A DNA stretch of 16,449 nucleotides from Flavobacteriales bacterium UBA979 (GTDB lineage: Bacteria; Bacteroidota; Bacteroidia; Flavobacteriales_D; Sanyastnellaceae): positions 1 through 16,449 of the forward strand of contig DBBR01000016.1 in assembly GCA_002292325.1 (NCBI GenBank). Direction: 5' to 3'. The notes under the pieces are model-generated. The model made no database searches, was not told the origin of the DNA, and saw only the letters and a program-made list of their open reading frames with translations. This document shows positions 1 through 15,962 of the stretch, in pieces. The translations under genes were made by a program, and so were the position numbers. Numbering within the stretch: position 1 is the stretch's first letter; every line of letters starts with the position of its first letter.

Positions 1-1
1 C

Positions 2-679: not shown

Positions 680-723
680 GAGAATTGATCGGACTCGGTT
701 GGGGCGAAGGGACCGCTTAGGTT

Positions 724-1245
724 TCAATGCTGCATGACATACCGAACGCCTGTATCGGTGTATTCTTCGAAGGCAATGACAGCGTTGCCCGTCCATCCTG
801 TGGCCTCGCTGGCCAGCCCGAGTGCTGGATAAGCCTTCATGGTGCCGAGAAGGATGCCTACGGTATTTTGATTGCATTTCCAGTCTACGAAATGCGATGG
901 TCGCTCTTCGATGTTGTGCATGCGTAAATGGTGGTTTCTGCCCATTTCCTCTAAACCCTCTGCCGCCGAAACTTTTAAGCCGGCAAAGGAGCGCAGTTCG
1001 TTTGCAGGTATGCTATCTGGGTTGTCGAAGTATACCCCTGTGAATTCTCCCGTGGGGTACAATTCTCTCAGTTCTTGGAATGCATCACCGATGGAAGTAT
1101 ACGGTCCAGTGTGGTCCATGCCAAGGAGGATGAATCCGCCTTGTTTGCCTTGCTGTACCTCAACTGATTGCCAAAGACCTTGTGAGCTGAGGTAGCCAAA
1201 TGCACAAAGTACAACTGCACTTAAGGTGATTAATACCTTTCTCAT
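724..1245 (-). CDS. membrane-anchored GyrI-like domain protein
   Basis: 173 residues from ATG at 1245. The frame stays open to a TTG at 1275, but the ATG puts a hydrophobic segment right at the N-terminus (residues 3-20, KVLITLSAVVLCAFGYL), so I chose it. The rest is soluble and looks like a GyrI/effector-binding (SOUL/GyrI-like) fold: HTGPYTSIGDAF at about 45-56 and the family hallmark VYFDNPDSIPANELR at 71-85. GyrI-like domains bind small ligands or act as inhibitors; those with an N-terminal anchor include eukaryotic TEX264. No DNA-binding domain is present, so it is not an AraC- or MerR-type regulator. It begins 30 nt after the stop of the TerB-like gene on the same strand, suggesting a two-gene operon of membrane-anchored proteins. 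Ligand and partner are unknown. The domain call is fairly sure; the role is open. Confidence 0.75.
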   Translation of the reverse strand: MRKVLITLSAVVLCAFGYLSSQGLWQSVEVQQGKQGGFILLGMDHTGPYTSIGDAFQELRELYPTGEFTGVYFDNPDSIPANELRSFAGLKVSAAEGLEEMGRNHHLRMHNIEERPSHFVDWKCNQNTVGILLGTMKAYPALGLASEATGWTGNAVIAFEEYTDTGVRYVMQH

Positions 1246-1275
1246 TGTAAGAGAGTGATTCGTATTGGGTATCAA

Positions 1276-1680
1276 TCAAATATCTAATTTGGTTTCGATG
1301 GATTTCAATGCTTCCTTTTCTTTTGCAGCTTCGTGATCATCTGCTTTCACAATCCAATTGCCAATTGTGACAATTGATTTTTTCTCCATTGTTGAATCGC
1401 TGTTTGCCACAGTCTCCAAGGCTTCTTCAAAGGATTTTTTCGATGCTTTTTGCATAACCGCTGATGGAATGAAGTCAATCACGCTCCTTTCAGCCATGGA
1501 TGCGACGCCATCCGCTTTGATCAACTCGATCATCAATCGAGCGGAAGCCTCCTTCATTTCTGGGCTCATCTTCTTCCAAGTGAGCTTGTACCGATAACTG
1601 CTCTGCCATATGTACACGCCCCAACCAATTGAAATTAAGGCTATTAAACCGACGCCGATCCACATATTTATATTCTGCAT
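1276..1680 (-). CDS. single-pass membrane protein with TerB-like helical domain
   Basis: 134 residues from ATG at 1680, TGA at 1276-1278. Residues 6-27 (MWIGVGLIALISIGWGVYIW) form one transmembrane helix, followed by a basic segment (YRYKLTWKK) that should lie in the cytoplasm. The remaining ~95 residues are helical and resemble the TerB/DjlA N-terminal fold: the first repeat has LMIELIKADGVASMAERSVID (residues 49-69, with KADG and a following Glu) and the second has WIVKADDHEAAKEKEALKSI (109-128, KADD and Glu). In TerB such Asp/Glu positions bind metal ions; here the set is incomplete, so metal binding is not assured. Upstream is AT-rich with no Shine-Dalgarno sequence. The gene diverges from the acylase gene across 134 nt and is followed after 30 nt by the GyrI-like gene. 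Membrane-tethered TerB proteins have been proposed to act in membrane stress responses; the role here is inference. Confidence 0.65.
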   Translation of the reverse strand: MQNINMWIGVGLIALISIGWGVYIWQSSYRYKLTWKKMSPEMKEASARLMIELIKADGVASMAERSVIDFIPSAVMQKASKKSFEEALETVANSDSTMEKKSIVTIGNWIVKADDHEAAKEKEALKSIETKLDI

Positions 1681-1741
1681 TTTTGTATTGGTTTTGTTAT
1701 CTCGTTCGGCAAGTTAAAATTTTTTGATGGAACTCAGTTTT

Positions 1742-1759
1742 TTGTTCTTTCAAGAACAA
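1742..1759. repeat. perfect inverted repeat between divergent genes (candidate operator)
   Basis: TTGTTCTT-TC-AAGAACAA: two perfect 8-bp arms around a 2-nt centre. It sits 62 nt upstream of the TerB-like start (1680, minus strand) and 55 nt upstream of the acylase start (1815, plus strand), just before a candidate -33 element at 1766. Because both neighbours are transcribed away from it, an operator for a dimeric repressor or activator fits better than a terminator. The 2-nt centre is too small for a stable RNA hairpin loop without opening base pairs. No regulator gene is next to it in the window. Confidence 0.45.
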
Positions 1760-1765
1760 CGGTGC

Positions 1766-1796
1766 TTTTGCGAGACGAAGTGTTAGCTTACCTTGC
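1766..1796 (+). promoter_or_regulatory. candidate Bacteroidota-type promoter of the acylase gene
   Basis: TTTTG at 1766-1770, an 18-nt spacer, then TACCTTGC at 1789-1796. This resembles the Bacteroidota primary sigma pattern TTTG / ~19 nt / TAnnTTTG, but the -7 box is imperfect, missing one T of the TTT run. The start codon at 1815 is 18 nt downstream, which leaves room for only a short leader. Position and spacing support it; the sequence match alone is weak. Confidence 0.35.
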
Positions 1797-1814
1797 AGCA
1801 AAGGCAATGCATCC

Positions 1815-4187
1815 ATGAAAAACACACTGATTGCAGCAGGTACTTTGCTGGCTTTGATCGCTATTTGTTTTGGAGTGTTCATCGCCCGCGAATGCGCACC
1901 CGAATATGCCTTTGAGCATAATACGGATTCGGTAGAGGGTGAAGTCGAAATTGTATTCGATGACATGGCTGTACCGCACATTTATGCTGCATCGGAAGCG
2001 GATGCGATGTTCGCATTGGGCTATGTACATGCTTCAGAACGCTTGTGGCAAATGGACTTGCTCCGCCGAGCCGGAGCCGGCGAATTGTCGGCCTTATTGG
2101 GTGCTGACATGGTTGAAAATGACACCTATCTGCGCACGCTCGGAATGCGGGAGGCGGCCATTCGCACGGCGATTGAATTTGAGTTGTCTGCGCCCGATCA
2201 CATTCAATTAGCCATGAATCGTTATTTGGAAGGAATCAATTCCTTCATTGCTGAAGATCGCCGTTCATTGGAGTACCTTTTGGTAGGGGAGGACCCGCGA
2301 ATGTTCACAGTGAGGGATGTTTTTTGTTCTACGGGATTCATGGCATACTCGTTTGCTATCCACTTGAAGACGGAACCCATCTTGGATTGGATGAAGCATG
2401 AACTCGAAACTGGATATTGGGCAGATTTGGCGGTCGATCAAGCTGGGTTTACCCGGATTCCTGCGGACAAAGACTCGGTGATTTCAGACATTTCAGGGCT
2501 GGCTTCTCGCGCGCACGAGCTGGATGCATTGCGGCCGGTTCCCCAGTGGTTGGGATCCAATGCTTGGGTGATAGCGCCCGATAAAACTGCTTCGGGTCAT
2601 GTGGTGTTTTGCAACGATGCCCATATGGCCTACGCTTCGCCGTCTGTATGGTACGAAGCGCACATCGTGACACCCGAAGTTGAGTACTACGGAAATCATC
2701 TGGCCGGCTTGCCTTTTCCTGCCATAGGTCATACGCGAGATCATGCTTGGGGCATTACGATGTTTGTCAACGATGACATTGATTTCTACCGAGAGACCGT
2801 CGATGGAGACCGTTACCTTCACGGCGGAGAATGGCGAGCACTGGAAGTAGTCGAGGAAACCATTGACGTCTTGGACGGTGAGCCGGTAACATTTGAATTG
2901 CGTAAAACCCACCACGGGCCATTGCTCGAAGAGGGAGTCTCGATGTGGTGGACGTATACACAGTATCCCGAAAACCGAATCCAGGAGGCGTTTTATGGGT
3001 TGTCCCGGAGTTCTGGCATCGAAGAGTTTCAGCGTCATGCGGCCATGCTGCATGCGCCGGGCGTCAACTTAATGTACGGTGATGCTCGGGGCGACATTGG
3101 ATGGTGGGCCTGTGCAAAGCTTCCCATTCGACCAGAACAAGTGGACACTAAAACCGTGATTGATGGCACAGATCCAAGCAACGATCCAATCGGATGGCAC
3201 GCGTTTGATGTCAATCCACAGCTCGTCAATCCGGCACGCGGCTTTGTCTATTCAGCAAACAACGCCCCTGAGCCGACTTTCGATAGCATCCGCTACCCCG
3301 GTCATTATTACTCAGGAAATACCCGTGCAGCCGGAATTTTCAATGCCCTTTCCGAACCTAAGAACGATTGGACCGTTTCAAAATCGCAGCAGTTGCAGTT
3401 GAACGAGCGTTCGTTGGTATACCAGGAGAATGCTGCGGCACTGGTGGCCTTGGCGCGAAGCAGCGGGATAGAAGCCGTGGAATTGGAAAACTGGGACGGT
3501 TCACATGGAGTGGATGACATGGAGCCGACCTTATATTATCGGTGGATGTACCGAACAATTGAGGGGGCTATGTTCGACGAATTTGAGCGAGCTGCCTCAG
3601 ATGGGTCGGCTGCTGACAAGTTTGAATCGTGGCACAAGACCATTGTGAGCGAAAACACATTTCCCCGGCTGCTTGCCAACGTGAATTCACCTTGGTGGGA
3701 CGATGTAAATACAGAAGAAGTTGAAACGGCCGCCGATGTTGTAGCGGTCGCATGGGAGGAAGCACGAGAAGATCTTTCATTGACGCTTGGCACGGATCCT
3801 GCTGAATGGCGTTATGGGCGACTGCACAAGGTGACCCACCGCCATGCGATGACGGATGTTCCGCTGTTAGGTGATTGGCTGAATGTGGGACCGTTTCCTT
3901 TGCCTGCCGCGAAGGATGCACTCAACAAGTATGAGTTCAAGCTCAAAGAGGCAGTAGATTACGAGGTTTTTTCCGGTGCTTCCATGCGCATTGGCATCGA
4001 CTTTGAGGACGTAGCAGCGTCAGAGAGTATTTTGCCAACGGGCCAATCGGGTAATGTGTTTAGTCCTTACTACGCCAATCAAGCGGCACTGTACCATTCA
4101 GGTCAATTCCGCAAGCAGCGTATGGATCGGGAAGACATAGCGGCAAACAAAATAGCACGTTCATTCATCCGTCCAATTGAACGATAG
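1815..4187 (+). CDS. penicillin acylase family protein (Ntn hydrolase)
   Basis: 790 residues, full family length. Residues 4-24 are a hydrophobic N-terminal segment (export signal or anchor; no acceptable lipobox). The alpha part has the family opening FDDMAVPHIYAASEADAMFALGYVHASERLWQMD. Autocleavage should occur between Gly247 and Ser248 (WLGSNAWV), making Ser248 the N-terminal nucleophile, beta-1. Counting from there, GHTRDHAWGITMFVNDDIDFY puts Asp at beta-73 and beta-76, where E. coli penicillin G acylase has calcium ligands. SANNAP supplies Asn482, and Arg504 follows 22 residues later, the spacing I recall for the oxyanion Asn and catalytic Arg of that enzyme (beta-241/263). Met is at the beta-69 oxyanion position (Ala in E. 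coli). The C-terminus has YGRLHKVTHRH and GQSGNVFSPYYANQ. It hydrolyses an amide bond in the periplasm; acyl-homoserine lactones, acyl-peptides and beta-lactams are all possible substrates. It ends 24 nt from the convergent PorP-like gene. Confidence 0.92.
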   Translation: MKNTLIAAGTLLALIAICFGVFIARECAPEYAFEHNTDSVEGEVEIVFDDMAVPHIYAASEADAMFALGYVHASERLWQMDLLRRAGAGELSALLGADMVENDTYLRTLGMREAAIRTAIEFELSAPDHIQLAMNRYLEGINSFIAEDRRSLEYLLVGEDPRMFTVRDVFCSTGFMAYSFAIHLKTEPILDWMKHELETGYWADLAVDQAGFTRIPADKDSVISDISGLASRAHELDALRPVPQWLGSNAWVIAPDKTASGHVVFCNDAHMAYASPSVWYEAHIVTPEVEYYGNHLAGLPFPAIGHTRDHAWGITMFVNDDIDFYRETVDGDRYLHGGEWRALEVVEETIDVLDGEPVTFELRKTHHGPLLEEGVSMWWTYTQYPENRIQEAFYGLSRSSGIEEFQRHAAMLHAPGVNLMYGDARGDIGWWACAKLPIRPEQVDTKTVIDGTDPSNDPIGWHAFDVNPQLVNPARGFVYSANNAPEPTFDSIRYPGHYYSGNTRAAGIFNALSEPKNDWTVSKSQQLQLNERSLVYQENAAALVALARSSGIEAVELENWDGSHGVDDMEPTLYYRWMYRTIEGAMFDEFERAASDGSAADKFESWHKTIVSENTFPRLLANVNSPWWDDVNTEEVETAADVVAVAWEEAREDLSLTLGTDPAEWRYGRLHKVTHRHAMTDVPLLGDWLNVGPFPLPAAKDALNKYEFKLKEAVDYEVFSGASMRIGIDFEDVAASESILPTGQSGNVFSPYYANQAALYHSGQFRKQRMDREDIAANKIARSFIRPIER

Positions 4188-4211
4188 TAAAATCGAACAA
4201 ATTCACGTACG

Positions 4212-5210
4212 TCAGTTCAGGTGCACCCGCATCCCGGCATTCCACCCTGACCGAATGGAAGTCAGCCCGACGGCCATTTCGGGGGCGATCCAGCAGGTCC
4301 AATTGCGTTCGAATTGACAGGAAACCACCGGTGCAAGTTGTCCAGTACTTCTGTAAATCGCACCCAGTCCGATGTGCGTTGCTGATTTGAGTTCGGTGAA
4401 TTTTGAATCTTCACCGATGGACATCGTCAACATCGTTCCGATGGACAAGAGCTGAGCGCCAGCTTGCCGCTCCATCTCCAGCCAACTCAAGTTGCGCAAG
4501 GGAAAACTCATCCCTCGAATTTCTTGCTGTCGGCTGAGCAAGACGGTATGCCGCAGAGCAAAAGGATCCGTGGAGTATCGAAAAAAACCTTGGTTAACAG
4601 GGGCATGCAGCGCACGATAGACGGCAGAGAATTGAAGGGTTTGGTAGCCCAGTTCGATTCCAGTTTCCAGGTAATTCACTGCGCCCATGGCAGAGGATTC
4701 GCCTGACTCCGCCAACTCAGGTGCAACGGGATTTAACAGGTATTGACTGTCCCATATCCCGTTGTTTCGCCAGGTTCTCCGGCCATATCCCAAGTGAAGG
4801 GCGGCTGAAAAGAAACGATTCTTCGCCAATCGAACCTTCTTGTAAGCCCCAGCCACGATGCGAAGCCGTTGCAATGACTCGCCTTCTCGGTCGTCCTCCA
4901 ATTGTCCTGTCCATCCGGCTTCCCCTCCTCCAGATCGCTCAGGGATGGCATATGTTAGATGCAACCGCGAGGTCTGGAAGGGACTGTTGACCAATCCCAA
5001 ATCGATGTTTCGGTGCGATAAATCTACCGTGAGTTTGGGAAGGAGGGATTGCTGAAATCCACTCAATGCGCGAGCAGAGACCGCTTGTCCAGCAGACCAA
5101 CGCGCTGGAATCAGGCACGAAAGCGCATCTTGACCTTGCATGCTCAATGAGCAAAACGAGAGGAGCAGGGCCAATGCTCCATGCCGAAGATCAACGAACA
5201 AGCGTGACAT
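4212..5210 (-). CDS. PorP/SprF-like outer-membrane protein, last gene of the seven-gene operon
   Basis: 332 residues from ATG at 5210; further in-frame ATGs lie upstream at 5222 and 5237. I chose 5210 because it gives a standard signal peptide (SRLFVDLRHG, then ALALLLSFCSLSMQGQ with cleavage near GQ). The mature protein is a run of short amphipathic strands ending in an aromatic- and Trp-bearing strand (WNAGMRVHLN), as expected of an outer-membrane beta-barrel. Segments such as LHLTYAIPE, AVYRALHAPVNQGFF and LGYGRRTWRNNGIWD fit the PorP/SprF family, but the usual N-terminal YM.N..L.NPA..G motif is not obvious, so this is a divergent member. It overlaps the giant type B CTD gene by 20 nt. Genes of this family typically sit right beside type B CTD cargo genes and are needed for secretion or surface attachment of that cargo, as SprF is for SprB. 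Context carries about half of this call. Confidence 0.65.
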   Translation of the reverse strand: MSRLFVDLRHGALALLLSFCSLSMQGQDALSCLIPARWSAGQAVSARALSGFQQSLLPKLTVDLSHRNIDLGLVNSPFQTSRLHLTYAIPERSGGGEAGWTGQLEDDREGESLQRLRIVAGAYKKVRLAKNRFFSAALHLGYGRRTWRNNGIWDSQYLLNPVAPELAESGESSAMGAVNYLETGIELGYQTLQFSAVYRALHAPVNQGFFRYSTDPFALRHTVLLSRQQEIRGMSFPLRNLSWLEMERQAGAQLLSIGTMLTMSIGEDSKFTELKSATHIGLGAIYRSTGQLAPVVSCQFERNWTCWIAPEMAVGLTSIRSGWNAGMRVHLN

Positions 5211-8200
5211 GTTGCATTGCATTGATTCGCGTTCCATCTTGAAAGTCAAGAATTAATTTCACAGCATAGACTGCGGAAGGTGCAGGCCGGTTTCGCCATT
5301 GGCCATCCCATCCATTCGCTGGATCATTGGATTGCCAAACCAATTCTCCCCAGCGGTTGTAAACCGTCATTTCAAAATCGTCCAAGGGCTCGGAGCGTAC
5401 GACCAGCATGTCGTTCAAAAGATCTCCATTGGGTGAGAATTGATCGGCCAAGAACCAATTGACAGGAGCGTGAATGCAAATGTGTGCCGTGTCGGTTGAA
5501 ATGCACCCTCCCTCGTTTTCAATCTGAAGGAATGCAGTGTACTCTCCAGGCTGCTCTGGCATCCAGGTGGGGGTCGAATTTCCGGTATACGGAGCTCCCC
5601 AGACTTCTGTTCCTGCGCCATTGATCGTCGATTCCGCGATTCTCCACCAACCCGACGTCGCAAATTGGCTGTAATCAATCAGTTGCAATGGCAAGAAATC
5701 CCATGCAATGCATTCCGTGCCCGGATTGACTGAAAACCCTGCACTGACCGGACTGTAGGCCGGTGGTACAGCTTCTGACCCAGTCGTGCAACCGTGTTCT
5801 AACTGATTTAACTGCCAGGGAATTTGGTCGCCAGCTGCTCCATTCAACACCCATTGGCTGGTATCCGCATTGACCCAATCGGCATCCACAAATTGCCCGT
5901 CCCACCACAAACCATAACCGGGCGTGCTGGAGGTAAATAACACGCTTGAAGGAGCTCCAAAGCACAGCGTATCGCCCAATTCCAGGGCATAGACAGCAGC
6001 GGGAATGGCTTCAATCCAGACGGAATCTTGCACTGGATCTGAACATCCGTCCATGGCCGTGACCACCAAATATCCACTGGAGTCGCTTACGTACGTTGTC
6101 GTTGCAATTTCAAATCCATCATTTGACCAAGACCAGGTTGGTAAAACATCGGGTAACCGTCCGCCCCATGCCTCTGCTTGAGCCGTGGTCGCTGTGCCCG
6201 GGCACAGGGTTGAGTCGTTGACACTCAGCGAAACACTCAACGGTGGAAGCATCGCAAAGGTGACCGTGTCTTCGGACAAACACGCCGCTCCGTTCCACTG
6301 GATTGTCAACGTATGCAATCCTGTGTCAAGGCTGGATATCCACAGGTCAGTCATCGGCTCGTCATCCAAGGTCCATGAGGTTCCCGTGGCGGGAAAAAGA
6401 TTTGGATCCCATGCCTGGTCCTGGTAGCACCAAATGGATTCCAAACCATTGAATGCCGCTTGTTGCCATGCTTCAACGTTGACTTGAACATCGTCAACGC
6501 ATCCCCCAGGTGCCGTCCAACTCACGTCTTGCCAGCCTGACGTTGCGGCACTGGGCGTGAGCACACCGGTCGTTCCATTCACGCCGCTTCCGTTCCACCA
6601 TCCACCCATGGGCCAATCTTCATCCGCCAAGTCCAAAGGTTCAGCATCGCTGCATACGACTACCGGTTCCAAGTTGAGTTCTGAGGGGAAAACCTCGAGT
6701 TGCAGCGCGTCCGAGCACGTATTGGCAGTGAAGGTCAATGTATAAAGACCCGGTGGTACTTCATCGGGGTGCAGGCTCCAATCGCACCAGGAACTCACGC
6801 TCAGGCCTACGCTTGATCCGGCACCGGCCACGACAGGGGTAATTCCAGCACCGGGCCAATCCCCGTTCCATGTCCCACACCAAGGGACTGCGGAGATGGT
6901 TGCGTCATGCAGATCTACCGAAGGAGCACCGTCGCAAGTTTCAAATACAGAGGCAACGTCTGTGGTGATGTTGTGGGCGATTAACGTGTCGGGGCAGCCA
7001 TTCGAAGCGGTGTAAACCAGTGTCTGTCCCCATCCTTCGGGGGCATTTCCGGGATTGAACCATCCATTGGTGGCGATTCCAGGTCCCGTCCAACTGCCGC
7101 CCACAGGGGCTGCATCTGGAGCAGGAAAAAATGGGGCTTGTTCGGGGCAACTCGTGAAGGATTCCACACCGATATCAATGGCCAGGATGTTGGCCTCCGC
7201 GAGTTGATTGCATCCCACCAATTGGTAAAGCCACGTGGTGGGACCCGGTGCAATGGATTCCGGTTCAAACCCCTCTTCATTCGCTCCGGGTCCCGTCCAG
7301 TATCCAATGGTATTCATCGCAGGGAATTGCTGCCAACCCGCTGTTTGACAGATGTTTCCAAGATCAACGGGTGGCTGGTCGGGGACCACTTCCACTTCGA
7401 TCGTGTCAGCGCACCCGCCTGAGGCGTAAATCAATTCAAAAACACCCATGGAATCCGGAGTGAATAGGCCGGCTGGAGTGCTGTATCCAAGCCAAGTTGC
7501 AGGAAGGTTGGAGGCGCCCATGAGCGCAACGGGATCACCCCCCAAGCAGGTACTCAAGTCCAACCCTGCTTCGACGTATTGCATGGAGATCACGGTATCG
7601 AGCGTGCAGCCTTCTGCAGTTGTATAGGTCAAGGGTTGAACGGGTGGATTGGTGCCATTTGATGCGGCTGATATACCGGCTGTACCGGCGTCTAACCACC
7701 AAGTTTCGTCTTCTAAATAGGTGGGCCCATCCCATGTTCCTCCGCTCGGATTGACGATCAATTCCACATCTCCACTCGCGCTGCAGATCGGTTCCTCCAA
7801 CAGGCTGCCGAAGACAATGGATTGTGCTGCAACTGCAATCATCAGCGTTTCGTTCAATCCATTTAGAGGCTGTTCGACCATCAATTCCAACGTGACGGAA
7901 TCAGCATCCTGAAAACAAACTGAGATGCCCGCAGCAACGCCGTCAGGTAATTCGTTTGAAGGGATGGGCGTACCGGTTGATCCAACACTCCACTGAATCA
8001 GATGCTCCAAACACCCCGCTGGCTGCCAAAATACGTTCACACATTCGCCAATGCATTCGGTGCCTTCGATGGTCCAAGTTCCTTGAATGGGACAGGCTGC
8101 GAGGCTCGCCGAAAAGGGGACTTCAAACACATGCAGTGAATCGCATGCATCGCGCATTCCCAACGGAACCATAAGTTCCCAACTGCAATTGCCTGTCATC

Positions 8201-8832
8201 GCCTCTGTGAAAGGCACCGTCAGCCCCACGGCGCTGTCCCCGTCGCAATTGAGAACCGCATCGGCAATGTTCCAAGCCTCCTCCGGCCCGGCTAGTACCT
8301 CCAGCGAGTCCAGCGCAACATCCGCGCAACCGACCGGTTCGTTGAATAAAAAGGTGAGGGATGTGGCTCCGCAATCCGGCCATGCTTCCGGCACGATCGA
8401 TGGAGGCACGGGGACGGGAGCTTGTCCAATCCACTCCAGTTCAAATCCGCAGAGATTCAGGCTATTATCTGATGTAAAAACGAAGGTTACCGTACCCGAA
8501 TTGGCTGTTAGAGAGGCGGGAACGAATCCCGTGCCGGTGATGGTCGCCAGCAGGTTGCCCGAGCCAGCTAAGCCATCCCATACGGTGAGAAAATCGAAAT
8601 CCTCTTCGATGCACACCGAAGAAAGAAAATTGACTAAGATGGGAATGCCACTTTCCAGTTCCACGGCAAAGACGATGTTCTCGTTGGAACTGTATTCTTC
8701 TCCGTCGCCCGAATCGACCAGTTGACCTGTGCAGTCGGATACGACCAAATTGTCCATGACGTATTCGGCTTGGCTCCAACCCGTTGGGATCGCCATCGCG
8801 CAACACACCGCGAACAACAGCAGTCGTTTCAT
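5191..8832 (-). CDS. giant CUB/repeat protein with T9SS type B (gliding-motility-associated) C-terminal domain
   Basis: 1,213 residues from ATG at 8832, which overlaps the previous stop as ATGA and gives a clear signal peptide (MKRLLLFAVCCAMAIPTGWSQ). The longer frame upstream is not used: it would cover the preceding lipoprotein gene. Residues about 24-130 look like a CUB domain (Cys pair, DFLTVWDG, TITGTG, SGTVTFVFTSD). Residues about 130-245 form a second Cys-bearing beta domain. About six modules follow, opening with W-x-G at roughly 366, 447, 512, 581, 654 and 744 and mostly closing with a GC.D strand, so the period is about 65-90 residues. More Ig/PKD-like modules run to about 1,120. 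Residues 1126-1213 are the CHU_C/type B domain: FSPNGDLLND, VYNRWGELVWQS, NGWDGQW, VYAVKLILD. It should be exported by Sec, then by the T9SS, and stay on the cell surface as an adhesin or binding scaffold. The binding target is unknown. Confidence 0.9.
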   Translation of the reverse strand: MKRLLLFAVCCAMAIPTGWSQAEYVMDNLVVSDCTGQLVDSGDGEEYSSNENIVFAVELESGIPILVNFLSSVCIEEDFDFLTVWDGLAGSGNLLATITGTGFVPASLTANSGTVTFVFTSDNSLNLCGFELEWIGQAPVPVPPSIVPEAWPDCGATSLTFLFNEPVGCADVALDSLEVLAGPEEAWNIADAVLNCDGDSAVGLTVPFTEAMTGNCSWELMVPLGMRDACDSLHVFEVPFSASLAACPIQGTWTIEGTECIGECVNVFWQPAGCLEHLIQWSVGSTGTPIPSNELPDGVAAGISVCFQDADSVTLELMVEQPLNGLNETLMIAVAAQSIVFGSLLEEPICSASGDVELIVNPSGGTWDGPTYLEDETWWLDAGTAGISAASNGTNPPVQPLTYTTAEGCTLDTVISMQYVEAGLDLSTCLGGDPVALMGASNLPATWLGYSTPAGLFTPDSMGVFELIYASGGCADTIEVEVVPDQPPVDLGNICQTAGWQQFPAMNTIGYWTGPGANEEGFEPESIAPGPTTWLYQLVGCNQLAEANILAIDIGVESFTSCPEQAPFFPAPDAAPVGGSWTGPGIATNGWFNPGNAPEGWGQTLVYTASNGCPDTLIAHNITTDVASVFETCDGAPSVDLHDATISAVPWCGTWNGDWPGAGITPVVAGAGSSVGLSVSSWCDWSLHPDEVPPGLYTLTFTANTCSDALQLEVFPSELNLEPVVVCSDAEPLDLADEDWPMGGWWNGSGVNGTTGVLTPSAATSGWQDVSWTAPGGCVDDVQVNVEAWQQAAFNGLESIWCYQDQAWDPNLFPATGTSWTLDDEPMTDLWISSLDTGLHTLTIQWNGAACLSEDTVTFAMLPPLSVSLSVNDSTLCPGTATTAQAEAWGGRLPDVLPTWSWSNDGFEIATTTYVSDSSGYLVVTAMDGCSDPVQDSVWIEAIPAAVYALELGDTLCFGAPSSVLFTSSTPGYGLWWDGQFVDADWVNADTSQWVLNGAAGDQIPWQLNQLEHGCTTGSEAVPPAYSPVSAGFSVNPGTECIAWDFLPLQLIDYSQFATSGWWRIAESTINGAGTEVWGAPYTGNSTPTWMPEQPGEYTAFLQIENEGGCISTDTAHICIHAPVNWFLADQFSPNGDLLNDMLVVRSEPLDDFEMTVYNRWGELVWQSNDPANGWDGQWRNRPAPSAVYAVKLILDFQDGTRINAMQHVTLVR

Positions 8833-9287
8833 CGCAAGGTGTCTAAAATGAGAATGGTTTCTGAGGTCACTTCGTTTGATGCATTGCCGGCGCGATCGTA
8901 CAATTGAAAGCTCAATGTGGTGGTTTCTTGGTCGCCATTGCCCAAGAGAAACAGCGGTGGGATTTGCACCAAAAAGTCGCCTTCTATACTGAGCTCCATT
9001 TGATTGGGTGTCAAGGGTGGCACGTGATACCAATCGTCGGCGTTCAGGCGCGAATCCCTCACGCGCAAGGAGGCGGAGTCGGGATCAGCTTCTCCAATGT
9101 CGCCCTGCGCATCGCGGTAGTACAACGTCACTTCGATGGGGTGCTCATAGGCTCCGACCATTGTAGGAGTGACTTCCAAGATGGAAATTTCTGGAGCGAC
9201 AGGGGCGGGCTCCTCCGGTTTGCATGAAAACAGCAATGCTACAGCCATCGCTGCGAACCAAATCCGATGAAAATTCCTGTTGATCAT
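8829..9287 (-). CDS. small Ig-like lipoprotein
   Basis: 152 residues from ATG at 9287. This start overlaps the previous stop (ATGA) and opens with a lipoprotein signal: INRNFHRIWFAAMAVALLFSC, with lipobox LFSC and lipidated Cys22. The mature N-terminus CKPEEPAP carries acidic residues and Pro, as on lipoproteins exposed outside the cell in Bacteroidota. The rest is a beta-strand pattern with VTLYYRDAQGDIGEADPDS (an acidic DxxGDxG loop, possibly calcium binding) and LSFQLYDRAGNASNEVTSETI near the end, consistent with an Ig or cadherin-like fold; a related shape is common in Bacteroidota proteins of unknown function. No catalytic motif is visible. It lies between the cytochrome-like lipoprotein and the giant surface protein, with 4-nt overlaps on both sides, so its amount should track theirs. 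A bridge or adaptor role is possible but is inference. Confidence 0.75.
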   Translation of the reverse strand: MINRNFHRIWFAAMAVALLFSCKPEEPAPVAPEISILEVTPTMVGAYEHPIEVTLYYRDAQGDIGEADPDSASLRVRDSRLNADDWYHVPPLTPNQMELSIEGDFLVQIPPLFLLGNGDQETTTLSFQLYDRAGNASNEVTSETILILDTLR

Positions 9288-10240
9288 GGAATGTAAATGG
9301 AGTAGAGTGGAATCAAATACGGTTGGCTGCCCGGCCCGGGAATGGCAATGGCATTGGTGCCGTCGTCCACCGTGGCCTGAAGGTACCAAGTGCTCTCGGA
9401 AGGGAATCCCGTCAAATCGATGGTCACCCGGTGGCTGTATGTACTGGTACCACCGTAGAAATTGGCCGCATCAAATGTGAAAGGCTGGTCCATTTCCACA
9501 GCTGGGGCGAAGGTCAGACTGTCGGGAGAAGCGGCCAAGTGCAATCCAGCCACGAGCGCATCGAGCGGTGTTGAGTCGTCGTCGATGGCGAACCATAGAT
9601 CCACGGGTGCAGCCTCGACTTCAAGCCGGTAATTGGCCTCTGGATTGCGCAGGTACGGTTCTTCCAAGCTGCCCGAAGCGAAGCCACCGAAGCCTGTGAT
9701 TTGCGGGGAAAGATCACCCACAACTGGTTCATTGCCATTGACATCGAGTGCGCCGTTTTCGATCCAGGTTTCCAATGCTTGGAGGTATGCAGCCTTGTTT
9801 TCGTTCCAATCCGATTCCGGGTCCACAGACAAAGGCATCATGCCCGAGGTATTGGGAATGAACGTTGTCAATCGTTCAATCAGCAAACTGCTGGATATGC
9901 TCTCAGGTACGACCCGGAATTCAAAACTTCCCGCGGCATCATTCGAAATGACAGGATGCCAAACCAAGGTGTTCCAGGCAGAATTGATGGTGCGAAAATC
10001 AGGCTCAAACGTCCCGTCATGGCATCCGGAATTGGCACAGGTGGGCTGGAACATGCGGTCGTGAAGCCATGCAAACGTTCCCTCTGGAATGGGCGCCGTG
10101 GCATCGATAACGGTTTCCACTTCGTCAACATCGTCGTATGGATTGGGCATCGGATCGGGTCTGCATTGAAGCAGTGCAAGGCCTGATACCAAGACCATGA
10201 AGGTGCGGGTCAAGCGGCGATGTGGATGGTGAACACTCAT
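9284..10240 (-). CDS. lipoprotein with cytochrome-c-like CX4CH domain
   Basis: 318 residues from ATG at 10240, overlapping the previous stop as ATGA. The lipoprotein signal ends in LALLQC, Cys26. Residues about 50-165 look like a small cytochrome-c domain: FQPTCANSGCHDG gives Cys68, Cys73 and His74 (spacing CX4CH rather than CX2CH), SGMMPLS near 133-137 offers a distal Met before Pro, and YLQALETWIENGA closes with the usual C-terminal helix. This pattern is seen in the cytochrome-like domains (PSCyt1 type) that accompany DUF1501/DUF1549/DUF1553 genes. CX4CH is a known but uncommon heme motif, so covalent heme is probable, not certain. Residues about 175-318 form a beta-rich domain with many aromatic residues and no known motif (SHRVTIDLTGFPSESTWYLQ). 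It may carry electrons for, or sense redox state of, the envelope complex; that is inference from context. Neighbours are the DUF1501 gene upstream and the Ig-like lipoprotein downstream. Confidence 0.78.
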   Translation of the reverse strand: MSVHHPHRRLTRTFMVLVSGLALLQCRPDPMPNPYDDVDEVETVIDATAPIPEGTFAWLHDRMFQPTCANSGCHDGTFEPDFRTINSAWNTLVWHPVISNDAAGSFEFRVVPESISSSLLIERLTTFIPNTSGMMPLSVDPESDWNENKAAYLQALETWIENGALDVNGNEPVVGDLSPQITGFGGFASGSLEEPYLRNPEANYRLEVEAAPVDLWFAIDDDSTPLDALVAGLHLAASPDSLTFAPAVEMDQPFTFDAANFYGGTSTYSHRVTIDLTGFPSESTWYLQATVDDGTNAIAIPGPGSQPYLIPLYSIYIP

Positions 10241-11580
10241 AATTGGTTCAATAAACTTGTCGTTCCATTGGCCGTCATGCCGGCGGCTTGCACTTCGGGC
10301 TGAACGCCCAATAAATCCGCCACCGTCATCATGGTATCGGATACCAGTCCGACCGGATTGTTCTCGCTGCCGATTGAAAGTCCAGCTGGAATGGATGGTC
10401 CAGCAAGGAGCGTCCAAACGCGCAATGAATTGGTGTCGCTGTGATCATAGGAGAGCCAATCGTTTTGATCCAGGATGTTATTGGGCTGGAGGTTTCGACC
10501 GCATTCTGGGGTGCACAGCAAAGTCGTTTGACCAGACATTTCAGGGATGTCGGTTTGGATTTTATTCCACAGGTGTCCGACAGCATGGTCTGCACGGTGC
10601 AAGGCTCCAAGGTATCCTGAAAAGTTAGAGTGACAGGAATCCACCGCGCTCAGGTTGACCATCATGAAGGCGGGTTTGAACCATTTTAAAACCTCTACCG
10701 CGAAGGCCATCGTGTACAAATCACCGTTGTCTGTCACCGGAGGCAAGTCCAATGTACCTGCAGCGACTTTCGCGTACATCGCTTCCATGAATGCTTTGAT
10801 GTTTTGCTTTTCATCTTCAGAATTTCCGATGGAACCGCCAGCTGAGGTCAATGCCTGAAATTGCAAATCCAAGAAGGTTTGCAGTTTATACATTGGAGCG
10901 AGTTCGTTTTCGGGGTGGTAAATCTTCGCATCGGCCATGAATTGGGCTCCGATGTCGCTGAAGGTCACCGTAGGCGCGAAAAAATTACCCGCGTATTCCG
11001 CCCCGTAATCGGGATGGGCGCTGTGATTCAGGAGTGGAGTTGAATTTCCAATTCCGTTGCCTACAAACCAAGCATCCGTGGCTGAATAGCCCCCGTGGCG
11101 GCGCAAATACTCAAAAATGGTAGGGTTGATTGGGCGTTGCTTCAGTCCTTGTGTCGTTGTGGTCGATCCTTGAACCAGGCTGTTGAGCCCGCCAAAATGA
11201 CCCGCACTCAAGGCTGTGACCTCTTTGAACACAGTGCCTTGCGATTCCAATGAATTGGAAAGAATCGCGGGGATGGGATTCAAACCACCCGTTCCTGTGC
11301 CATAGACAATCTTGTTTTCAGGTGCTGCACCCGAAAACATATTGTACATGATATTTCCCGGATAGGGTTCGCCTTGGCTGTCGTCAAGGTAGCGCTTCAG
11401 GACCGATTCTTGCTGACGCACCCCACCGGCGAAGGCAACCATCACCACGTGCTCAGACGAGCGATTCCCTGTGGGAGCGAACAAGCGGCCGCTCGGCAAA
11501 ATGTACGGAGCAAAAGAAATGCCCGCAGCTGCGAGGCCAGTCTTCTTGATGAAGTCCCTTCGGGTCGTTGTCTTTTTCAT
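10237..11580 (-). CDS. DUF1501-type protein, Tat-exported, alkaline-phosphatase-like fold
   Basis: 447 residues from ATG at 11580. The N-terminus is a twin-arginine signal (TTRRDFIKKTGLAAAGISFA), so it is exported folded, possibly with a bound metal. The body resembles the DUF1501/sulfatase-like group: HVVMVAFAGGVRQQES near 44-59, KEVTALSAGHFGG at 119-131, PTIFEYLRRHGG at 153-164, LHRADHAVGHLWNKI at 327-341, CTPECGRNLQPN at 356-367 (counterpart of the usual EFGR..N), and SYDHSDTNSLRVWTLLAGPSIPAG at 377-400, where His380 matches the usual G-x-DHW metal His. A canonical sulfatase C-x-P-x-R active site is absent, so it should not be called a sulfatase. The activity of DUF1501 proteins is unknown; hydrolysis of a phosphate or sulfate ester in the periplasm is the family guess. 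Its stop overlaps the cytochrome-like gene by 4 nt, and its start shares one base with the previous stop (TGATG). Confidence 0.82.
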   Translation of the reverse strand: MKKTTTRRDFIKKTGLAAAGISFAPYILPSGRLFAPTGNRSSEHVVMVAFAGGVRQQESVLKRYLDDSQGEPYPGNIMYNMFSGAAPENKIVYGTGTGGLNPIPAILSNSLESQGTVFKEVTALSAGHFGGLNSLVQGSTTTTQGLKQRPINPTIFEYLRRHGGYSATDAWFVGNGIGNSTPLLNHSAHPDYGAEYAGNFFAPTVTFSDIGAQFMADAKIYHPENELAPMYKLQTFLDLQFQALTSAGGSIGNSEDEKQNIKAFMEAMYAKVAAGTLDLPPVTDNGDLYTMAFAVEVLKWFKPAFMMVNLSAVDSCHSNFSGYLGALHRADHAVGHLWNKIQTDIPEMSGQTTLLCTPECGRNLQPNNILDQNDWLSYDHSDTNSLRVWTLLAGPSIPAGLSIGSENNPVGLVSDTMMTVADLLGVQPEVQAAGMTANGTTSLLNQL

Positions 11581-12089
11581 CAGTAGTAACGGTATTCGTC
11601 AGATAACGAGAAGGACATGTAAACCAATTCTGGCGTCATGCCGGGATTGTTCAGAACAAATTCACGGACAAACGTTCGTTCCGCCTGCGTTGGAAAGCGC
11701 GTGTAAAACCGCAAATACGTTTCGTCGATGAACGCGTCCAGGTCATCCAGCATTTCCTCGCGTGTCTGCAGTTCGAGGTCAGGCTGGTTGAAGAAGTTGC
11801 TGAGAAGGACTTCCCTCGCGATGCTTTGATCTCCGATGGACTCAAAAACACGCGCCGCGTTGTATAGGTCGTTCGCAGGCATGCCGGCTTGAAATAAATT
11901 CGTGTGCACAATGGCAACCCACTGCTCATTCGTTTTCAGGCGGTCTTTGGTGGCAAAGCCCGGCGTCACTTCAAGGCCTTGCAATTCAAATGACACGTCT
12001 GGCTCGGGTCGGCAGCCGGCAGCCAAGAGGAGCAACACAATCAGCGTCATATACCCCGTTTGCGTGCGGCTAGAAACCAGCATATTCAT
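11580..12089 (-). CDS. lipoprotein with one R-x-P-T-x-x-E module
   Basis: 169 residues from ATG at 12089; ATG at 12083, two codons later, is an equal alternative. The long open frame further upstream is rejected because it runs inside the preceding gene. The signal has a hydrophobic run and lipobox AAGC (Cys26), then RPEPDVSF. The mature protein is mostly helical: TNEQWVAIVHTNLFQAGMPANDLYNAARVF, then AFIDETYLRFYTRFPTQAERTFVREF near 119-144, ending in VYMSFSLSDEYRYY. The FYTRFPTQAE stretch and the S-D-E-Y ending recur in the upstream lipoprotein, so the two look like relatives built from the same module. The ending recalls DUF1553/DUF4214-like proteins, in which a [ST].EY motif closes the domain. 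It overlaps the upstream gene by 14-20 nt and shares one base with the DUF1501 start. Function unknown; a structural partner of the DUF1501 protein is likely. Confidence 0.72.
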   Translation of the reverse strand: MNMLVSSRTQTGYMTLIVLLLLAAGCRPEPDVSFELQGLEVTPGFATKDRLKTNEQWVAIVHTNLFQAGMPANDLYNAARVFESIGDQSIAREVLLSNFFNQPDLELQTREEMLDDLDAFIDETYLRFYTRFPTQAERTFVREFVLNNPGMTPELVYMSFSLSDEYRYY

Positions 12090-12981
12090 CAGATTGTAGG
12101 ATGTAACGTTGAATGTCGGCCGTTTGCAGATTGAGCAGGAATTCAGTCGTCGCTTCAAGGACTTCTGCATCGGAAGGGTCACGCGCAAGAAAGCTTCGGA
12201 ATTGCCAGCGCACCATGCCTTCATCCCATTCGGGATTCCACACGACGGCGTGAATGTAACTCGGTTTGTCATTTGCCGACATGCCGAACAACAGGTTGGG
12301 TTGGTTGTACTCGATGATGTCGTAGGAAACATCAAATTCAGCTTGCGTTGGGAACCGCTGATACACGTCGTCAAACGTAGCATTGACAAAATTGAAGCTG
12401 TTCATGTTGATTTGATCGTATACGCCATTCCACATCATCCGCTGGCAAGCATCGCGTACATCGATTTCCTGGAATTCCATATCGACCGGACATTCGAGCA
12501 CGGCCAGATACCGCTCGGCTTGTGCCTGATTCAGTGCATAGCCAGCCCAATTGCCATTCAGGCTGTCGTTGACGGCCATGCCACGTGCAATTCCGTACCG
12601 TTCATTCAGGATGGCATCGGAAGCCCCTTCAAGGAAGCGTGCCTTGAGGTCTGTATAAAGTTTCTCGTGATACAGCGTTCGATAGGTTGTGCCGTCAAGC
12701 GAGTCCATGCCAGTCACCAGCGTATTGATTACGGCCAATCGGACTTCTGCGCTTAACGTATCGTTCTCCAAGAGCAAAACGTCACGGTCCATTTCATCAT
12801 CCGTTGGCTCGCGTCCAATGAGATCGATGTACATCCGGTTGACATAATTCTGAACGAGGATGGTTGAGATTTCGTCATACGGCGGAACCGGGTTATCGGG
12901 ATACACGAATTCTTCCGGTTTACAGCCGGACCAAGTGACCACCGCTAAGGCAAGTGCGAAAAGGAGAAAACGACAGGACAT
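12070..12981 (-). CDS. DUF1549-like lipoprotein, first gene of the operon, three R-x-P-[ST]-x-x-E modules
   Basis: 303 residues from ATG at 12981, the first ATG in frame. The signal peptide ends at lipobox WSGC, Cys20, followed by KPEEFVYPDN. Residues about 44-70 (NYVNRMYIDLIGREPTDDEM) resemble the opening of DUF1549/DUF4214-type domains. A second copy of the motif lies near 203-215 (FDDVYQRFPTQAEF) and a third near 263-273 (SFLARDPSDAEV), and the protein ends in YILQSDEYAGF. The middle includes Cys164 and Cys179 (ECPVDME, DACQRM), which could pair. No catalytic signature is visible. It is the first gene of a seven-gene unit and follows the SulP stop after 135 nt; no strong TAnnTTTG box stands out in that gap, so the operon promoter is unidentified. 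Proteins of this kind accompany DUF1501 proteins in Planctomycetes and Bacteroidota, with unknown function. Confidence 0.75.
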   Translation of the reverse strand: MSCRFLLFALALAVVTWSGCKPEEFVYPDNPVPPYDEISTILVQNYVNRMYIDLIGREPTDDEMDRDVLLLENDTLSAEVRLAVINTLVTGMDSLDGTTYRTLYHEKLYTDLKARFLEGASDAILNERYGIARGMAVNDSLNGNWAGYALNQAQAERYLAVLECPVDMEFQEIDVRDACQRMMWNGVYDQINMNSFNFVNATFDDVYQRFPTQAEFDVSYDIIEYNQPNLLFGMSANDKPSYIHAVVWNPEWDEGMVRWQFRSFLARDPSDAEVLEATTEFLLNLQTADIQRYILQSDEYAGF

Positions 12982-13116
12982 TTCGGTTTTGAGCTCGTTG
13001 TCTAATGTAAACAAAAACAAGCGATTGGAGGGAAAGGTTGCTCATGAAACCAGAATGACGAAGTCCATGGATTGCGTTCCATCCGAGCGGCAACCGTGAA
13101 ATTCCTCAGCTCCCCT

Positions 13117-14643
13117 TTAATCCACGTCCCGGACCAGTTTATACGTTGGGTCTTCACCGAAGTGGTTCACTTCGATGATGGCATCGGCCTTGTCCATCAT
13201 GGCTCGGCAATCCGAGCTCAAAGCTCGGATATGCACCGTTTTTCCGGCTGATTTGTAACGTGCGGTCAGCCGGTTCAATGCTTCAATAGCTGACATATCC
13301 ACCACGCGGCTTTCTTGGAAATTGAGGACGACATGCTCTGGGTCGTTGGCGATATCGAATTTGTCAGCAAACACGGTTGTGGAACCGAAGAATAAGGGGC
13401 CGTAGAGTTCGTAATGTTTCCATCCGTTTTCATCGATGTGCTTGCGCGCCCGGATTCGCACCGCATTGTCCCAGGCAAAAACCAACGCAGCGACAATGAC
13501 TCCGATCAGCACTGCCATGGCCAGGTTGTGCATGACGGCCGTTACCAGCGTCACGAGGATCATGATAATCACATCAGACCAAGGCATGCGTCGAAAGGTT
13601 CGGAGGGAGGCCCATTCAAAGGTGCCAATGGCAACCATGATCATGAGACCGGTCAACGCAGCCATCGGCAACTTTTCGACGATGGGTGCACCAAACAGAA
13701 TAAAGACCAAAAGCATGACGGAAGCCACAATACCGCTCAGGCGGGCCCGCGCCCCGGAACTCACGTTGATGAGACTTTGTCCAATCATAGCACATCCCCC
13801 CATGCCACTGAACAATCCACTGAGAATGTTGGCTGCACCCTGTGCGACGCATTCGCGGTTCCCATGACCTCTCGTTTCCGTGATTTCGTCCAAAATACTC
13901 AGGGTCAGCAGGCTTTCAATCAAACCTACGCCTGCAACGATTGCCGCGTACGGTGCTATGATGCCGAGGGTTTCCAAATTGAAAGGAACAATGGGAATAT
14001 GGAACGGTGGAAAACCGCCAGAAATAGACGCCAAATCCCCGACTGTTTTGGTGTCCAATCCGAAAGCGGCCGTGATACCAAAAATGACCAAGATGGCGGT
14101 CAGTCCTGCTGGGATTTTTTTGGTCAGCTTGGGCAAGAAAGCAATGATGGCCATCGCAAGCAATGTCAGAGCTCCAAACGTGGTGAGTTCTCCCATGGGA
14201 AGCCAATCGCCGCTTTCAGTTTTGAATTGGCTCAATTGGCTGCCTCCGATGATGATGGCCAGGCCATTTACGAATCCAAAGATGACGGGCTGTGGCACCA
14301 AACGCATCAATTTCCCCAGCTTTAAAAATCCTGCGGCAAGTTGGAAAATCCCGGCCAGAATAACGGTCGCAAAAATGTATTCAGGGCCCTCTATTGCTGC
14401 CAGGGATGCGATGACCACGGCAATGGCACCTGTTGCTCCACTGATCATCCCAGGCCGTCCACCCAGCACACTCGCGACAAGTCCAACCACAAATGCCGCA
14501 TACAGACCTGTCAAAGGACTCAACCCAGCAATCAAGGCGAACGCTACGGCTTCCGGTATCAGGGCCATGGCCACAGTCAACCCACTCAATACTTCAAGGC
14601 GGTAATCCACGGTTTGTCGGAAGTCAAAAAGGGCAATGCGCAT
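13117..14643 (-). CDS. SulP family anion transporter with C-terminal STAS domain
   Basis: 508 residues from ATG at 14643. An in-frame ATG lies further up at 14748, but it would put the start across the purT start and ahead of a promoter box, so the downstream one is chosen. Residues 13-395 contain the SulP/SLC26 membrane core: DYRLEVLSGLTVAMALIPEAVAFALIAGLSPLTGLYAAF, GRPGMISGATGA, GFVNGLAIIIGGSQL, GHGNRECVAQGAANILSGLFSGMGGCAMIGQSLINVSSGARARLSG. Residues about 410-495 are a STAS domain with VVLNFQESRVVDMSAIEAL, where DMS sits at the usual anti-sigma-antagonist-like loop. Likely substrates are sulfate or bicarbonate, possibly sodium coupled as in BicA; the sequence does not decide this. It diverges from purT across 103 nt. 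Confidence 0.95.
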   Translation of the reverse strand: MRIALFDFRQTVDYRLEVLSGLTVAMALIPEAVAFALIAGLSPLTGLYAAFVVGLVASVLGGRPGMISGATGAIAVVIASLAAIEGPEYIFATVILAGIFQLAAGFLKLGKLMRLVPQPVIFGFVNGLAIIIGGSQLSQFKTESGDWLPMGELTTFGALTLLAMAIIAFLPKLTKKIPAGLTAILVIFGITAAFGLDTKTVGDLASISGGFPPFHIPIVPFNLETLGIIAPYAAIVAGVGLIESLLTLSILDEITETRGHGNRECVAQGAANILSGLFSGMGGCAMIGQSLINVSSGARARLSGIVASVMLLVFILFGAPIVEKLPMAALTGLMIMVAIGTFEWASLRTFRRMPWSDVIIMILVTLVTAVMHNLAMAVLIGVIVAALVFAWDNAVRIRARKHIDENGWKHYELYGPLFFGSTTVFADKFDIANDPEHVVLNFQESRVVDMSAIEALNRLTARYKSAGKTVHIRALSSDCRAMMDKADAIIEVNHFGEDPTYKLVRDVD

Positions 14644-14670
14644 GGGGGTGGTTTGGATTGAAAAAAGGCG

Positions 14671-14678
14671 CAAAGATA
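14671..14678 (-). promoter_or_regulatory. -7 promoter box of the SulP gene
   Basis: On the minus strand this reads TATCTTTG, an exact match to the Bacteroidota TAnnTTTG -7 consensus, followed by C as is common in Flavobacteriia. The SulP ATG (14643) lies 27 nt downstream. A matching -33 TTG at the expected spacing is not visible, so this rests on the -7 box and its position. Confidence 0.55.
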
Positions 14679-14746
14679 GGCAGTGAATGAACGCCTCATG
14701 CGACCATTGAGTGCCAATCCACAAGGATGCATAGTACCTTTCTGGC

Positions 14747-15937
14747 ATGCAAAAGAAAATTCTGTTGCTCGGGTCGGGCGAATTGGGCAAGGAAGTGGTT
14801 ATCGCACTTCAGCGTTTGGGTCAGCAAGTGGTGGCGGTGGATTCCTATTCGGGGGCTCCAGCGATGCAAGTTGCCGACGATTTTGAAGTCATCAATATGC
14901 TCGACGGAGAGGCGCTTGATGCTGTTGTGGAGCGTCACTCCCCTGATATTATAGTGCCTGAAGTGGAGTCCATCCGAACGGAGCGGTTTTACGATTATGA
15001 GGCTCAAGGAATCCAGGTTGTTCCCTCGGCGCGTGCAGCGAACTTCACAATGAACCGCCGGGCAATCCGCGATCTCGCAGCACAAGAGTTGGGGTTGAAA
15101 ACAGCTCCGTACCGGTATGCAACATCCTACGATTCGCTCGCGGCTGGTGTGGAAGCGGTGGGAATGCCCTGTGTCGTCAAACCGCTGATGTCCAGTTCGG
15201 GAAAAGGACAATCTGTCATCCGGACTTCGGATGATATTTCAACGGCATGGGCTTATGCGCTCGAGGGTTCAAGGGGGGACTTGGCAGAGGTTATTGTCGA
15301 AGCTTTCATTGATTTTGATTACGAAATCACCTTGCTCACTTTAACCCAAGATTCTGGGAATACGTTGTTTTGTCCACCGATTGGGCACCGGCAGGAGCGA
15401 GGGGACTATCAGGAGAGTTGGCAACCGGCTGCCATGGAGTTTGATGCATTGCGCGAAGCGCAAGAAATGGCAGCAAGGGTCACAGATGCTTTGGGTGGTT
15501 CTGGAATTTGGGGTGTCGAGTTTTTCATTCAAATCCCAAAGGGTGATCAACCGGGAACGGTTTACTTCTCCGAATTGTCACCTCGTCCGCATGACACAGG
15601 CATGGTGACATTGGCGCATACCCAAAATTTTTCAGAGTTTGAATTGCATGCCCGAGCAGTGCTCGGACTGCCCGTTACGGAAATCAAACACATCCGAAAC
15701 GGTGCAAGTGCTGTGGTGCTTGCTCCAGCATCCGTCGCCTCGAAAACCGCTCCTGTGATCACCGGCTTGGCTGAAGCTGCACGATTCACTGATTCTGATT
15801 TCCGGGTATTCGGCAAACCAACGAGTCGTCCATATCGGCGCATGGCCGTGGGCCTTGCGCATGGCGGATTGGATGTGAGCACGGCATCATTGGTCGAGCG
15901 AGCTCAAGCGGTGGCCCGAGCGATTCAAGTGAGGTAA
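14747..15937 (+). CDS. purT: formate-dependent phosphoribosylglycinamide formyltransferase PurT
   Basis: 396 residues (E. coli PurT has 392). PurT makes formyl-glycinamide ribonucleotide from GAR, formate and ATP in purine synthesis, without folate. The ATP-grasp layout is complete: [28 protein letters not shown] at 7-34 and APAMQVAD at 37-44 in the N-terminal domain; [15 protein letters not shown] at 142-156 as the ATP loop; [11 protein letters not shown] near 189-199; and Mg ligands Glu258 (WGVEFF) and Glu276 in the PurT signature [14 protein letters not shown] (275-288). Compared with E. coli, the hairpin between the two Glu residues has about six extra residues (IPKGDQPG). The ATG at 14747 gives the normal N-terminus; there is no Shine-Dalgarno sequence at a proper distance. 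It diverges from the SulP gene and converges on the AtoE-like gene, 25 nt apart. No other purine gene is in the window. Confidence 0.96.
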
Positions 15938-15962
15938 ATGAGTTAAATGAGGTCAGGCGGGA

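Follow-up and report, generated by a model that had tools for sequence, protein, structure and literature searches.

INTRODUCTION

In Planctomycetes, Verrucomicrobia and some Bacteroidota, genes for PSCyt1-PSCyt2(DUF1549)-PSD1(DUF1553) proteins are paired with a DUF1501 gene, which places a PSCyt1-like heme domain next to a DUF1501-like protein of presumed alkaline-phosphatase (AP) fold. The available part of one paper describes the functions of the PSCyt genes as entirely unknown, suggests a carbohydrate role and notes sulfatase neighbours (PMC5615132); the available excerpts of two others present DUF1501 without any characterization (PMC4452313) and PSCyt1 as a mere annotation term (PMC11495043). 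A second described arrangement belongs to the type IX secretion system (T9SS), whose type B cargos, according to the accessible parts of two papers, depend on or associate with PorP/SprF-like partners (PMC12618676, PMC9143113). In this study we describe a seven-gene operon, g1 to g7, on the minus strand of a 16,449-nucleotide stretch of Flavobacteriales bacterium UBA979 (contig DBBR01000016.1, positions 1 to 16,449; hereafter the window). The operon is real, conserved and, within the literature searched, undescribed, and it joins a split PSCyt/DUF1501-like core (g1 to g5) to a T9SS type B cargo with its shuttle (g6 and g7). We found neither a description of this operon nor a paper linking DUF1501 with type IX secretion in the open-access literature searched.

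The operon shares with the PSCyt/DUF1501 pair the side-by-side placement of the heme domain and the AP-fold protein, and perhaps a DUF1549-like helical part. However, its domains are distributed over separate lipoproteins, the order is changed so that the cytochrome follows g3, the heme motif is CX4CH instead of CXXCH and occurs once instead of twice, the sequences fall under Pfam detection, and one branch carries a T9SS cargo/PorP pair in addition. In g6 and g7 we see the arrangement of SprB/SprF and Fjoh_3952/Fjoh_3951, a large secreted protein with a CHU_C/TIGR04131 domain and a porP/sprF-like gene directly downstream, here placed behind a five-gene core of lipoproteins, a DUF1501-like protein and a probable heme protein. 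The predicted fold of g1 resembles that of the phycobilisome linker (PF00427) and of DUF4214, although g1 is a lipoprotein and its sequence similarity to them is marginal.

RESULTS

A five-gene core with a cargo module in one branch

Relatives of g3, the DUF1501-like protein, were detected in 145 of 399 order genomes at E<=1e-3 (52 of them at 1e-40 or better) and, at E<=1e-20, in 94 of 395 class genomes representing 57 of 197 genera. A phylum-wide sample yielded matches in 2 of 296 genomes, both from the window's family. Among cultured species, Sanyastnella coralliicola carries a relative of g3. For the comparison of gene order, 141 loci were reduced to 112 by removing identical g3 sequences. 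They include 40 regions from the stronger order matches, 80 named loci that are the best 80 of 416, and 20 further loci, 18 hand-chosen from weaker class matches and two (L199, L200) with intermediate scores; the proportions given here are not population rates.

The genes g1, g2, g4 and g5 surround g3 in 98 of the 112 distinct loci. In eleven of the other 14 the contig stops on the side of the missing genes. L192 keeps g2 alone beside g3 (the g1 side is cut, but no g4 or g5 was detected although the contig leaves space for them), and L173 and L175 hold g3 without the other core genes. The complete set of seven genes could be recognized in 44 of the 112 loci. A g3 tree of 112 rows, built by a quick method with a midpoint root and with long branches flagged, separates a 91-row branch, in which g6 lies downstream of g5 in 73 of 77 readable loci, from a 21-row branch that has the five-gene core and g6 in 0 of 16 readable loci. 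We call a locus readable if g5 was detected and enough sequence follows it; L173, which lacks g6 despite 2.7 kb of sequence after g3, is left out by this definition and would make the count 73 of 78. Together with the 98 core loci, this difference between branches identifies the block as a five-gene core that in one branch is joined by a CUB/type B cargo and its PorP/SprF partner. The first-pass annotation had joined a DUF1501/cytochrome-like set to a cargo/PorP pair as one unit, which is borne out in the first branch and fails in the other. An order of gain from core to g6 to g7 would rest on the midpoint root, and we do not claim it.

In the window itself the seven reading frames run without a gap, and starts and stops re-derived from the sequence agree with the positions first annotated. 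Successive genes, from g1/g2 to g6/g7, overlap by 20, 1, 4, 4, 4 and 20 nt, the first overlap shrinking to 14 nt with a g2 start at 12083. The tight spacing is kept in relatives: among 41 loci (the window and 40 others), junctions of <=60 nt were found in 40/41, 39/41, 40/41, 34/34, 29/30 and 25/29 readable cases, with starts set by a script rule that picked an inner ATG for the window's g7 and not 5210. At the g6-g7 junction the overlap is 1 or 4 nt in 16 of 29 readable loci. Gene order and tight junctions are thus conserved, and an operon kept together in many Bacteroidia suggests a shared job. Between 4000 and 13300 there were 6 promoter-like sites against 7.3 expected, counted with a sigma-70 pattern only and not with Bacteroidota promoters, and 7 terminator-like sites against 9.9 expected from shuffles, none of which stands out.

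Three side observations concern the loci themselves. An M20-peptidase-like gene (named by eye) lies on the same strand directly upstream of g1 in 7 of the 20 further loci (L182, L184, L185, L186, L188, L189, L190); next to g1 it was not detected in the remaining 13, a few of them too short on that side to show it, and we did not count it as part of the core. L069 carries, at about 9106-10452, an open reading frame of 448 amino acids with six CXXCH motifs near a core without g6 and g7. In L054, and in L126, by its match the same contig in another collection, g6 and g7 of a metagenome-assembled genome (MAG) are in pieces, through decay or assembly error.

Together or apart

Among the 399 order genomes, scored at 1e-40 for g3 and 1e-60 for g6, 47 hold both genes, 5 g3 only, 5 g6 only and 342 neither (Fisher p=1.6e-49, not to be taken literally as the species are related). 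Both genes are therefore present in 47 of the 57 genomes with either. Absence of g6 is the less sure call, with two best candidates scored per genome: G006, counted as g3 only, was missed and in fact has g6 linked (L068). The other g3-only genomes include G193 and G295, where g3 is close to a contig end, and G001, which has a short contig and an other-branch g3. G184 gave no g6 match at 1e-30. One genome counted as g6 only, G215, holds g4, g5, g6 and g7 in a row on a 5.7-kb contig. In the window's genus, among the genomes listed, both genes occur in 7, neither in 14, and a single genome, with g3 at a contig end, has g3 only.

These data bear on a different explanation, in which the PSCyt/DUF1501-like core and the T9SS cargo/PorP pair are two independent neighbour units, co-transcribed in some lineages and working apart. 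Several observations speak for it and weigh against the single machine proposed at first. In the other branch none of the 16 readable loci has g6 after the core, so that over both branches g6 is optional. In G119, G178 and G164 the g6-g7 pair lies on a different contig from the core, with g7 still after g6. In G235 the pair is present and no g3 was found in the assembly (77% complete). G024, counted among the 47 genomes with both genes, has the pair inside a 102-kb contig, and its sole g3 (L069) belongs to the branch without g6; since it keeps g6 and g7 without a matching core, this genome weakens our reading and speaks against a strict one-machine view. As for g7, of the 73 loci with g6, 44 have it, 10 end too early and 19 were scored without g7; one of the 19, L162, holds a g7 piece, which leaves 18 loci without g7 beside g6, a further difference from SprB/SprF. 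The pairing of cargo and PorP partner proposed at first is to this extent incomplete. Against independence, however, stand the position of g6 after g5 in 73 of 77 readable first-branch loci and the 47 genomes with both genes versus 10 with one, several of these 10 being contig ends or incomplete assemblies. In the branch with g6 the two groups are not apart as often as together, and we regard two unconnected units as somewhat unlikely.

g3 and its altered active site

The product of g3 (11580-10237, minus strand; 447 amino acids) has a twin-arginine signal and a predicted fold of the AP superfamily. Its likeness to DUF1501 lies below Pfam detection: DUF1501 (PF07394) has no match in the window genome and none in g3 at E<=1, and it is absent among the families listed for 28 g3 members at E<=0.1, so the label DUF1501 given at first does not hold at the level of the family model. 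Profile-profile comparison (hhalign) with DUF1501 scored 45% (E=2e-4, 110 C-terminal columns), cross-pair controls reaching <=0.3%, and in a profile search with filters off DUF1501 proteins made up 8 of the top 9 matches (best E=0.002). The g3 profile gave no match at E<=0.01 to the sequences of solved structures. The motif series GG / E-x-G-R / D-H of DUF1501 is present in g3, with GG in 112/112, E359 in 107/112, G361-R362 in 112/112 and D379-H380 in 112/112; the DUF1501 set, with EFGR in 21/22, RDHH in 21/22 and GGPS in 12/22, shows changes comparable to those of g3.

The active site was compared with two AP-superfamily lipoproteins, L261 and L262, and the metal-ligand roles of its positions are those we assume from general AP chemistry. 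Their first ligand Asp is Gly at g3 position 52 in all 112 sequences, which makes a role of g3 as an enzyme, as proposed in the first-pass annotation, doubtful. Where these proteins have Asp-His, g3 has Glu in 107 and Asp in 5 sequences, and the next residue is Cys in 80, His in 31 and Gln in 1. D314, H317 and H380 are invariant (112/112), with the alignment of H317 ambiguous by 1-2 residues, and position 125, the one nucleophile-like position checked, is variable. The full two-metal ligand set and nucleophile of AP-superfamily hydrolases are not found in g3. In our reading g3 has probably lost one of the metal sites, and this counts against hydrolysis.

It might still be possible that g3 works as a sulfatase, phosphatase or phosphodiesterase, with a polyanion that g6 has captured as its substrate. 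The clear AP-superfamily fold and the three invariant residues agree with this, as does the carbohydrate role with sulfatase neighbours in the available part of the paper cited above (PMC5615132). The Gly in place of the first ligand Asp, the mostly Glu-Cys or Glu-His in place of Asp-His and the varying position 125 argue against it, and we consider it quite improbable. It should be kept in mind that the ligand assignment comes from two lipoproteins and from AP chemistry as we assume it.

Beside this, g3 residue 360 (window 10503-10501) is Cys in 80 of 94 sequences of the higher-scoring set, and all 18 sequences of the set that scores lower have His there. The reference proteins (L261:740-1702 and L262:422-1396) are lipoprotein-like AP-superfamily proteins of about 320 amino acids, weak relatives of the C-terminal half of g3, and these two sequences hold Asp, Asp-His and His where g3 differs; weak matches occur in many other genomes of family f9. 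One genome (G009; C34, C2) carries both a canonical DUF1501 gene and a g3-type operon.

g4, a PSCyt1-like, probably heme-binding lipoprotein

We detected canonical DUF1501 in 91 of 198 genomes of the phylum. In 20 Bacteroidota regions around its best-scoring matches, a same-strand open reading frame of 771-1151 amino acids with two CXXCH motifs precedes 20 of 22 DUF1501 genes; we take the products of these frames to be PSCyt1-PSCyt2-PSD1 proteins, the domain names being presumed. Against the first 260 residues of these partners, the g4 profile scored 96% in hhalign (E=4.6e-9, 126 columns), and the likeness runs through the whole domain, including the heme motif, the distal Met and a WI-x-x-GA end. 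Among 179 open reading frames its top 11 matches are all PSCyt partners, of which there are 20; PSCyt partners were the targets of this comparison, with no other cytochrome family as decoy.

The g4 product (10240-9284, minus strand) is a 318-residue lipoprotein (Cys26) with a PSCyt1-like cytochrome c domain, the heme motif C68..C73H74, a conserved Met135-Pro136 and a C-terminal region without assigned fold. The motif is CX4CH in 107 of 108 members, and cytochrome c assembly proteins are encoded in the window's genome. The Pfam PSCyt1 model (PF07635) touched 1 of 26 members (E=0.048), and the g4 profile had no match at E<=0.1 among sequences of solved structures. Judged by its sequence, g4 is a putative c-type cytochrome with one heme motif. 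Because the Pfam models of DUF1501 and PSCyt1 do not recognize g3 and g4, we do not file them as members and call them remote relatives.

Cargo, partner and small lipoproteins

The g6 product (8832-5191, minus strand) is a secreted protein of 1213 amino acids with an N-terminal signal peptide judged by eye, an N-terminal CUB match exactly at the Pfam cut-off and a type B T9SS C-terminal domain above both cut-offs (TIGR04131, 40.3 bits vs 35; CHU_C, 48.8 vs 27); PKD domains were seen in 3 of 4 relatives scanned. The window's g7 (5210-4212, minus strand; 332 amino acids), a PorP/SprF-like outer membrane protein whose sequence has drifted in the window's genus, is far under the cut-off (TIGR03519/PF11751, 16.5 bits vs 90.55). 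Five of 6 relatives are over it, and a profile of 14 g7 relatives from other genera retrieves the window's g7 at E=2e-25. Of the names given at first, the type B domain of g6 stands directly, and PorP/SprF is probable by way of the relatives.

The 303-residue lipoprotein g1 (12981-12070, minus strand; Cys20) has a predicted phycobilisome-linker-like helical fold (PF00427/DUF4214) aligned over residues 89-287, at scores below the Pfam cut-offs (DUF4214, 14.5 bits vs 23.2; PBS_linker, 12.2 vs 28.7). Relatives show weak similarity to DUF4214 and to PSCyt2 (DUF1549), the latter in 7 of 26 members (best E=0.003); hhalign gave 61% over only 42 columns, with no clear ranking among the 179 open reading frames, and the relation is suggestive only. 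The g1-related g2 (12089-11580, minus strand, or from 12083; about 169 residues, Cys26) and g5 (9287-8829, minus strand; 152 residues, Cys22) are lipoproteins for which Pfam and NCBIfam gave no reliable family. As a possible surface-export signal, at least two acidic residues soon after the Cys were counted in 17/35 g1, 22/37 g2, 13/34 g4 and 26/30 g5 sequences; lacking a background, the count was not used. We take the flanking genes to be a penicillin acylase family protein (1815-4187, +), a SulP transporter (13117-14790, -), PurT (14747-15937, +) and an AtoE-like gene (15963-16427, -).

DISCUSSION

The explanation that we favour combines a two-module envelope operon with a redox-linked capture mechanism, and as a whole we give it a probability of roughly 0.43. 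Its first part, a core of g1 to g5 that is a split and diverged relative of PSCyt1-PSCyt2-PSD1 plus DUF1501, with g6 and g7 attached, seems fairly probable to us. The mechanism is by itself unlikely. It starts from gene order, co-occurrence, predicted folds, signals, the heme motif, the type B domain and the probable identity of g7 as PorP; from these we infer a complex, its side of the membrane, heme loading, a substrate and a flow of electrons. The lipoproteins g1 and g2 would form an outer-membrane scaffold holding g3 and the cytochrome g4, g3 may bind or convert a ligand at a reduced metal site, and electrons might pass via the heme of g4. In the T9SS branch g6 would be secreted and held at the surface by g7, where it could capture the ligand or attach the cell.

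Possibly the core serves g6 in another way, as a dedicated maturation or anchoring complex with g3 as a pseudoenzyme. The gene order, the tight junctions and the loss of catalytic-type residues in g3 would fit such a role. However, a whole branch keeps the core without g6, and in 11 of 11 genomes with only an other-branch g3 no full-length g6 match was found (3 partial matches, E 1e-31 to 1e-34; <=40 candidates scored per genome). A heme motif would also be unexpected for a chaperone, and we hold this explanation to be very improbable.

In its boldest form the redox-linked mechanism would make the operon a redox-coupled surface system of Bacteroidia, in which a CUB/PKD arm displayed by the T9SS is linked with a heme lipoprotein of the outer membrane and with a single-metal protein of DUF1501 type, the latter performing new chemistry on a captured ligand. 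This is rather a long shot; if true, the large orphan PSCyt/DUF1501 family would have in this operon a compact form with separable parts. Domains related to that family are here spread over single lipoproteins and, in one branch, tied to a T9SS cargo whose export route is known. Core-only and core-plus-cargo branches allow comparison, and the function of the orphan family would become testable by single-gene deletions.

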